The notes beneath the pieces were generated by a model. The model made no database searches. It was not told where the DNA came from and saw nothing but the letters and a program-made list of their open reading frames with translations. From the NCBI GenBank assembly GCA_024641505.1, contig JAHECY010000017.1:1-50978 (forward strand): DNA of 50,978 bases. The letters are read 5' to 3'. Position numbers and translations under genes: made by a program. The stretch's first letter is position 1, and each line of letters begins with the position of its first letter. This DNA is from Gammaproteobacteria bacterium. Lineage in GTDB: Bacteria > Pseudomonadota > Gammaproteobacteria > SG8-11. Shown piece after piece: positions 27,983 to 30,278 of the stretch.

Positions 27983-29473
27983 CTACACCTCCTTACCCAA
28001 ACGTTCCACCCCGGCTTCCGCCATCGCCACCGCCCGGAATACCGCACGGCGCTTGTTAAGGGTTTCTTCCCACTCGGTCAACGGCACGGAATCGGCGACG
28101 ATACCACCACCGGCCTGAATATACAGGACGTGATCCTTGATCACGGCAGTGCGGATGGCGATCGCGGTATCCATATTACCGGTCCATGACAAATACCCCA
28201 CGGCGCCCCCATAGATCCCGCGTTTCACCGGTTCCAGTTCATCGATAATTTCCATGGCGCGGATTTTCGGCGCGCCGCTCAAGGTGCCGGCGGGAAAGGT
28301 CGCGCGCAACACATCGATCGGCGTGTAACCCGAGGCCAGCTGGCCGGTGACATGGGACACGATATGCATCACATGGGAGTAACGTTCGATCACCATGCGG
28401 TCGGTCACTTTCACGCTGCCGGTTTGGGCGATGCGTCCCACGTCGTTGCGCCCCAGATCGATGAGCATCAAATGCTCCGCCAGCTCCTTGGGGTCCGCCA
28501 GCAATTCCCGCTCCAGCGCCAGGTCCTCGGCTTCGGTCTTGCCCCGGGGTCGGGTGCCGGCGATCGGCCGCACGGTCACTTCCCCGTCCTCAAGACGCAC
28601 CAGAATTTCCGGTGACGAACCGACCACGTGAAAATCGCCGAAGTTGAAGAAAAACATATAGGGAGAGGGATTCAGGCAACGTAACGCCCGGTACAAATCC
28701 AGGGGCGGTGCCTTATAGGGAGTGCTCATACGCTGGGATATCACCACCTGCATGATATCGCCATCGACGATGTATTCCTTAGCACGCTCCACCGCCTGCA
28801 TGTGTTCCGCCTGGGTAAAACTGGACTCGAAATCCGACTCCTGCACTTTGCGTCGGAACGGCGTGCCGGCACTGCGATTCAGGGGCGCACGCAAGCGGCC
28901 TTCCAGGGCATCCAAGCGCTGCTGGGCCTGACGCAGGGAGTTGGTGGCGTCCGGGTCCACGTGCACGATGAGATACAATTTGCCACTGAGATTGTCGAAC
29001 ACCACCACTTCTTCGGATACCAGTAACAGAATATCCGGCAGTCCCAACGGGTCCGCGTGCTGCGCCTTGTCCAGGCGCGGCTCCACATAACGTACCGCAT
29101 CGTAACCAAAGTAGCCGACGAGACCGCCGGTGAACCGGGGCATGTCGGGAATCTCCGATGACCGATAACCGCCGTAATACTGATCGATCCAGGCCAGGGG
29201 ATCGCTCATTTCCGCGCTGCGCACTTCCCGGTTGTTTTCCAGCACTACGACCTGATGCCCATGGACCTTGATCACTGTGCGGCACGGCAGACCGATGATG
29301 GAGTAGCGCCCCCACTTCTCGCCGCCTTGCACCGACTCCAGTAAATAGGAATACGGACCATCGGCCAGCTTCAAATAGGTACTTAACGGGGTATCAAGAT
29401 CCGCCAGCAGCTCCCGGACCACGGGCAGCCGGCTTTGGCGTGTTGGCGCGTCAGCGCTTGAGGTATTCGGCAT
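27983..29473 (-). CDS. trpE: Anthranilate synthase component I
   Basis: A 496-residue chorismate-utilising enzyme making anthranilate. The Leu-Leu-Glu-Ser-Val sequence near residue 45 belongs to the tryptophan feedback site. The catalytic core has [10 protein letters not shown], Met-Leu-Ile-Asp-Leu-Gly-Arg-Asn-Asp, [10 protein letters not shown] and Gly-Ala-Val-Gly-Tyr-Leu. The start is an ATG with AGGTGACCT just before it. A small frame with adjacent Trp codons lies 55 bases upstream, suggesting translational sensing of tryptophan as well as feedback inhibition. Confidence 0.97.
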
Positions 29474-29528
29474 AGGTCACCTGTAGTAAACAAAAACCGA
29501 ATTCAATCCCAACAACAATAAGCACGTA

Positions 29529-29576
29529 CTAGCCGCGCCATCGCCAGGTTTGAGCATTGATATCGTTCGCGTTCAT
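29529..29576 (-). CDS. trpL: Candidate trp leader peptide
   Basis: A 15-codon frame between gph and trpE encodes MNANDINAQTWRWRG, with TGG-CGA-TGG near its end. It has its own Shine-Dalgarno AGGT five bases before the ATG. Two Trp codons in 15, directly ahead of trpE, is what a tryptophan attenuation leader looks like. I see no strong terminator hairpin with a U-tract between it and trpE, so classical attenuation is not shown. Control could use a weaker structure, Rho, or translation coupling, or the match could be chance. Confidence 0.6.
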   Translation of the reverse strand: MNANDINAQTWRWRG

Positions 29577-29585
29577 GGTGACCTG

Positions 29586-30278
29586 TCAGTTAGTGATCGC
29601 TTTTCTGGCCGATTGTAATAGACCCCGCAGTTCTTCGAAAGAGTCAATTACCGCGTCCGGCTGCGCCAGGCGGATGTCCTGGCCATGATTGTAGCCATAG
29701 GACACGCACACCACGGTAAAACCCGCGGCACGGGCCGCTTTGACATCACTGACCGAGTCTCCCAGCATCAACGCCTGGGTCGGCACCACGCCAAAATGTT
29801 CTGCCGCATGCAACAACGGCAGGGGGTCCGGTTTCTTTTTAGGCAGGCTGTCACCACTGATCACCAGAGCAAACAGGTCACGAATACCCAGGGTCTCCAG
29901 AATCGTCAAGGTGAACTGTTCCGCCTTGTTGGTGACACAACCCAGCGCCAGACCACTTTCCCGCAACCACTCCAGGCCGGCACGCACGCCAGGATACAAC
30001 TGGGACCGGGAACAGGCATGAGCCGCGTACAGCTCCAGGTAAATCGGGTACGCCTGTTGGAACAGAGCTTCGTCCGGCTCTCCCTCCAAGCGACCGATCA
30101 GGGTGCGGCGCACCAGGCGCTCCACACCGTTACCCACCCAATCGCGCACCGCCGCCTCACCGCGCGCCGGCTGACCGATGCGCCGCATCATTTCATCGGC
30201 GCACCAGGCCAGGTCCGGTACGCTGTCCACCATGGTGCCGTCCAGATCCACCAGCACCATACGGGTTTTCTCAAACAT
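29586..30278 (-). CDS. gph: Phosphoglycolate phosphatase
   Basis: A 230-residue HAD-superfamily hydrolase with nucleophile Asp11 and Asp13 in Asp-Leu-Asp-Gly-Thr, a helical cap domain, Thr-Asn-Lys (motif II), Lys-Lys-Lys-Pro-Asp-Pro and Leu-Gly-Asp-Ser-Val-Ser-Asp (motif IV). The gph position next to rpe and trpE is the standard gammaproteobacterial one. It removes the phosphate of 2-phosphoglycolate from DNA repair or oxygenase side reactions. It begins one base after the rpe stop, so the two are cotranscribed. Confidence 0.94.
   Translation of the reverse strand: MFEKTRMVLVDLDGTMVDSVPDLAWCADEMMRRIGQPARGEAAVRDWVGNGVERLVRRTLIGRLEGEPDEALFQQAYPIYLELYAAHACSRSQLYPGVRAGLEWLRESGLALGCVTNKAEQFTLTILETLGIRDLFALVISGDSLPKKKPDPLPLLHAAEHFGVVPTQALMLGDSVSDVKAARAAGFTVVCVSYGYNHGQDIRLAQPDAVIDSFEELRGLLQSARKAITN

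Follow-up and report, generated by a model that had tools for sequence, protein, structure and literature searches.

A putative tryptophan-sensing translational attenuator upstream of trpE in Gammaproteobacteria

Comparison of trpE upstream regions suggests that in Gammaproteobacteria the supply of tryptophan may be sensed through a block of translation, and not through the textbook stop of transcription. We estimate the probability that a Trp-sensing translational attenuator controls trpE at the locus described here at roughly 60%. Attenuation by tryptophan is the textbook case of regulation sensed by a ribosome, and it is told through a transcription terminator. The arrangement proposed here consists of a short leader frame with Trp codons near its end, an unusual arginine codon directly before the last of them, and a helix in which the start of the leader is predicted to pair with the Shine-Dalgarno sequence of trpE.

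Results

A short Trp leader precedes trpE

The window, the whole stretch of 50,978 nucleotides that was analysed, carries on its minus strand the gene order (rpe-like ORF)-gph-leader-trpE-trpG-trpD-trpC, as read from the list of open reading frames. The upstream gene, gph (29586..30278), is phosphoglycolate phosphatase-like and was assigned from that list and by tblastn to relatives. The regulated gene, trpE (27983..29473), encodes anthranilate synthase component I and has relatives at 60-72% identity. Inside the 112-nt gap between the two genes lies a frame of 15 codons followed by TAG (29529..29576, minus strand), which encodes MNANDINAQTWRWRG and reads ATG AAC GCG AAC GAT ATC AAT GCT CAA ACC TGG CGA TGG CGC GGC TAG. 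Its ATG is 9 nt from the gph stop and directly adjoins the 3' end of a ribosome site, AGGTCACC (29577..29584), and its stop is 55 nt from the trpE ATG at 29473. The Trp codons stand near the end as TGG CGA TGG (Trp11-Arg12-Trp13; 29538..29546), of which CGA-TGG (29543..29538) is the conserved core. The initial annotation had described a 15-codon Trp leader with its own ribosome site 55 nt before trpE, and all of its coordinates are correct; it had also seen TGG-CGA-TGG, although not that CGA directly before UGG is the most conserved feature.

The comparison set comprises 222 distinct gammaproteobacterial sequences from upstream of trpE, 149 of which have room for a leader, defined as a gap of at least 85 nt after gph or a gph that was not located. 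A frame of at least six codons with Arg-Trp within its last six codons was scored as a leader. Such frames occur in 104 of the 149 gaps, against 1.95 expected from shuffles and 1 on the reverse strand; for frames with CGA-TGG the count is 95 of 149, against 0.65 expected and 0 on the reverse strand. In dinucleotide shuffles of the gph-trpE gap in the window, an Arg-Trp frame arises in 1.65% and the CGA-TGG version in 0.05%. The leader stop in relatives is mostly 42-75 nt 5' of trpE. Within the family to which the genome belongs, the region is intact in two relatives and both carry a leader with W-R, MRTFKQKDRRWRSQA in L083 and MDTTTQTNRGWRRG in L098; in a third it is broken by a contig end, and in a genome of the same genus (G001), whose assembly is 79% complete, the region was not matched. 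Absence of the frame or of its Trp codons from close relatives had been named at the outset as the finding that would speak against a leader; L083, L098 and most Gammaproteobacteria with a long enough gap have one. On the evidence of sequence conservation, we regard it as confirmed that the frame before trpE is not a chance ORF and that the Trp leader is real and widely conserved.

The leader varies in its surroundings. In about 50 relatives (L002, L006, L084, L115, L149, L216 and others) trpE lies at most 60 nt from gph or overlaps it and no leader is present; the leader, it seems, comes and goes as one block. In Oceanospirillum, Halomonas and relatives (L009, L031, L034, L040) the leaders end in KRWRW, with CGC preceding the first Trp and CGA the second, and their spacing to trpE is longer, at 71-97 nt. 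Elsewhere in the genome under study, trpB (L239) follows directly behind a trpF-like frame and, by eye, has no separate leader in the stretch inspected.

The leader start pairs with the trpE Shine-Dalgarno sequence

The trpE Shine-Dalgarno sequence, AGGTGACCT, occupies 29474..29482. The initial annotation had taken the two ribosome sites as near repeats of each other; in fact the leader ribosome site AGGUCACC is the perfect 8-nt reverse complement of the trpE Shine-Dalgarno GGUGACCU, and 29577..29584 pairs with 29474..29481 in the predicted fold. We refer to the leader side of this helix as arm A and to the trpE side as arm D. In the fold of the ribosome-free leader, the core of the trpE Shine-Dalgarno is predicted to be fully paired, and the energy of the hairpin at this locus, taken alone, is unremarkable (z = -1.39). 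The two family members L083 and L098 have similar long hairpins; that of L083 is a single, nearly continuous structure from the leader start to the trpE ribosome site (-60.5 kcal/mol for a stretch of 200 nt).

Across 113 leaders, the predicted accessibility of the trpE Shine-Dalgarno is 0.318 with the native leader versus 0.425 with shuffled leaders (p = 2e-11); the stretch that pairs with it is located 25-50 nt 5' of the Trp codon. Covariation was analysed by comparing the energies of leader-start and trpE ribosome-site duplexes within and across species. Native duplexes average -16.3 kcal/mol and mismatched ones -10.7 kcal/mol in the 113 leaders (z = -19.9); among 103 non-redundant representatives the values are -16.7 kcal/mol and, across species, -10.8 kcal/mol (z = -20.2). 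The window for arm A was picked after the position of the partner had been seen, and with windows anchored on trpE alone instead of the Trp codon z is still -14.3. In genomes without room for a leader, which served as a control, z is -0.8. Genomes that have room but no Arg-Trp leader give z = -5.7; this group probably includes variant leaders such as L098. Two further controls gave z = -1.9 (leader start against early trpE coding sequence) and z = -3.0 (far upstream sequence against the trpE Shine-Dalgarno). The Trp-codon region, considered as an alternative partner, shows no specific pairing with the trpE Shine-Dalgarno (z = -1.2). In leaders with an unambiguous start the partner is codons 3-5, inside the footprint of an initiating ribosome, and at the locus in the window it is the leader ribosome site.

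Judged from this covariation, the trpE Shine-Dalgarno is sequestered by a conserved pairing with the leader. The early proposal that the trpE site is masked after the ribosome has passed is supported by this covariation, with a different geometry: the partner is the leader start, which lies behind a ribosome stalled at the Trp codons and not under it. Sequestration could also act mainly through Rho, with untranslated trpE terminated early. Rho polarity on untranslated messages is well established and this reading fits the A:D helix of the translational model; it extends that model by one step and does not replace it, and we consider it improbable as the principal route.

CGA precedes the last Trp codon

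In 95 of 108 leaders, CGA encodes the Arg of the last Arg-Trp pair, whereas in the trpE genes that follow these leaders it accounts for 3.9% of Arg codons. A general preference for CGA before UGG is ruled out, as CGA supplies only 9 of the 47 Arg codons that precede TGG inside trpE and gph. The Arg codon after the leader Trp shows ordinary usage (CGC 43, CGT 15, CGG 9, CGA 6). Nor does the RNA fold account for CGA: the third base of the codon has a pairing probability of only 0.51, and a G at that position would make the fold more stable, by a mean of 1.1 kcal/mol, so that structure gives no reason for an A. The AUG inside CGAUGG was considered as a hidden start; its frames relative to trpE are distributed 39/28/26 and the stops are scattered, giving no sign of coupling. 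Pseudomonads, which have two Trp codons, carry CGU or CGC in place of CGA, which argues that CGA is not indispensable.

CGA is decoded through inosine-A wobble. A Salmonella assay based on the his leader peptide found it to be slowly read (PMC4046918). We suggest that CGA before UGG probably slows decoding in the trpE leader as well.

The conserved Arg-Trp end might instead act as a peptide, stalling the ribosome by sensing a small molecule in the manner of TnaC, whose arrest senses free Trp. Conservation of the peptide end (RW, RWRx, WRW) is what such a mechanism would predict, but the synonymous choice of CGA is conserved beyond the need of a peptide sensor, and the peptide ends and upstream residues are widely variable. 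Induction by free Trp would also run in the wrong direction for a biosynthetic gene. Nascent-peptide arrest is therefore highly improbable here.

The tip hairpin rarely resembles a terminator

Folds place a second hairpin at the tip of the structure (29508..29546), in which the Trp-codon region pairs with the region after the leader stop and the stop itself lies in the loop. Across relatives this hairpin is more stable than with a shuffled post-stop arm (p = 5e-11). At the locus itself it is terminator-like in the weakest sense only and is not convincing: a search of 2.5 kb for intrinsic terminators returned one weak 6-bp terminator-like site against 2.3 expected, in agreement with the original remark that no U-tract terminator follows the leader. 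Searches of Rfam, Trp_leader included, gave no match either for this region (E up to 10) or for 12 relatives (E up to 5). Among the 103 representatives, 16 (about 16%) combine a hairpin of at least -7 kcal/mol in strength with 5 U in the 8 positions behind it, versus 3.7% in shuffles, and only 5 of 103 remain when 6 of 8 U are demanded. In L011, L140 and L148 a tip hairpin of -14 to -17 kcal/mol is followed by a U-rich run; these are possible true terminators overlapping the Trp codons. In the stretch 35-15 nt 5' of trpE, T content also climbs to about 0.38-0.40.

The tip hairpin and the U-rich stretch behind it could together terminate transcription unless a stalled ribosome directly melted the hairpin, as in pyrBI. 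The selection on the hairpin, the rise in T content and the excess over shuffles, with good-looking cases in L011, L140 and L148, are what this form of transcription attenuation would leave behind. The terminator-like signature is, however, absent from 87 of 103 leaders, the site at the locus is weak and within chance, and the complementarity to the trpE Shine-Dalgarno is left unexplained; we think it unlikely as the mechanism at this locus. Since the fraction of terminator-like leaders exceeds that in shuffles, some lineages may act on transcription, and termination may have a part there without being the common feature. Attenuation of the classical E. coli trp type, with mutually exclusive 1:2, 2:3 and 3:4 hairpins, is very unlikely. 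It would account for a leader ORF with Trp codons before trpE, and attenuation of P. putida trpE is reported in the title of a paper, Pseudomonas having the same leader. Only about 50 nt separate the leader stop from trpE, however, and the tip arm and arm D take up this space; most leaders lack a terminator, and the Rfam model for the class matches neither this locus nor the 12 relatives.

A second ribosome is probably needed to open the helix

We infer a switch in which tryptophan would be the signal and translation of trpE the response. In the absence of ribosomes, the leader RNA would fold back on itself into a single long, imperfect hairpin that has the leader stop codon in its middle, with arm A at the leader start paired to arm D at the trpE Shine-Dalgarno and the Trp-codon region paired to the post-stop region at the tip, and trpE would stay untranslated. 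When charged tRNA-Trp is scarce, a ribosome would halt when CGA occupies the P site and UGG the A site. The next ribosome would then wait at the leader start behind the stalled one and cover arm A, which would free the trpE ribosome site and allow trpE(GDC) to be made. With plentiful Trp, termination 3-15 nt past the Trp codon would leave arm A exposed and the helix would close. The slow CGA codon probably prolongs the pause, so that one or two Trp codons would suffice.

Because the partner of the trpE Shine-Dalgarno lies behind a Trp-stalled ribosome, a second ribosome, queued or initiating, is probably needed. In models averaged over the relatives, Shine-Dalgarno accessibility increases from 0.30 to 0.47 when the leader start is masked. 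It stays at 0.30 with a single ribosome at the Trp codon and reaches 0.46 if another is stacked behind the stalled one. The distance from the leader start to the Trp codon is commonly 39-54 nt, which, given the ribosome footprint, leaves room for just such a second ribosome. The modelled ribosome positions and this spacing favour queueing. The model would require queueing or initiation kinetics, since a lone stalled ribosome is predicted to leave arm A uncovered. At the locus in the window, masking of the leader start leaves the predicted mean accessibility of the trpE Shine-Dalgarno unraised, because a weaker local hairpin at the trpE start (AUUCGG:CCGAAU) persists.

In many genomes the leader start is 0-50 nt from the gph stop, so ribosomes leaving gph may feed the leader. 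In fluorescent Pseudomonas (L021, L033, L035, L039 and others) a stop-free gph frame continues into the leader and ends in ...LWMKVIKALARWRWRA*; the boundary between gph and leader seems to be fused in this group, and the Trp codons would be read by the very ribosomes that translate gph.

Discussion

Much of the class Gammaproteobacteria seems to use an arrangement at trpE that differs from the textbook one and is backed by covariation. Such an arrangement would account for leaders that have a single Trp codon and no terminator. As a tentative extension, which we hold to be possible but more doubtful than the proposal for the locus itself, the switch would be class-wide. The mutual pairing of two ribosome sites would set them in competition, queueing behind CGA-UGG, a slow codon followed by a sensor codon, would decide which of them is open, and CGA would make one Trp codon enough to sense the charging of tRNA-Trp. 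With its near-invariant CGA before UGG, the leader lends itself to a direct test of whether the decoding speed of a codon pair serves as a regulatory part. The CGA-UGG leader motif could also help in annotating how trpE is controlled in many uncultured bacteria.

The leader resembles E. coli trpL (Rfam Trp_leader) in being a short ORF directly before trpE with Trp codons near its end, and in its presumed signal, the delay of a ribosome at those codons. Among the features of the trpL type, the leader ORF with Trp codons is present here and an intrinsic terminator and a Trp_leader match are not. In contrast to trpL, our locus has no convincing terminator, its alternative pairing is predicted to hide the trpE ribosome site, and the leaders of its relatives often have a single Trp codon with CGA before it.

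In E. coli pyrBI, the leader ORF overlaps a hairpin that the ribosome melts directly, with an effect on transcription. The trpE leader likewise overlaps a hairpin, but in most of the leaders compared this hairpin lacks the U tract.

Attenuation of P. putida trpE/trpGDC is the subject of Olekhnovich and Gussin (2001), by its title as given in the references of PMC8297930. The gene is the same, and in pseudomonads the same RWRW leader stands in front of it; unlike the leader in the window, theirs contains CGU/CGC-UGG pairs, and in fluorescent Pseudomonas it consists of the final part of the gph frame. Neither the CGA-UGG pair nor the pairing of one ribosome site with another was described in the literature that we searched; parts of the arrangement may have been reported before, in the P. 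putida study among others.

In attenuators of the erm type, known from macrolide resistance, occupancy of a leader ORF by a ribosome frees a sequestered ribosome site, as is proposed for the trpE leader. The signal here would be tRNA charging and not a drug, and the leader's own start would be the antagonist of the target ribosome site. In layout, the closest system so far described is the LEU element upstream of leuA in Actinobacteria, in which a run of codons pairs with the Shine-Dalgarno within a pseudoknot (Seliverstov 2005, PMC1262725). Both systems place codons for the product amino acid in a leader ORF, lack a terminator and pair leader sequence with the downstream Shine-Dalgarno. They differ in the pairing partner: in the LEU element it is the codon run, whereas in the trpE leader it is the leader start, the Trp region giving z = -1.2 against the trpE Shine-Dalgarno.
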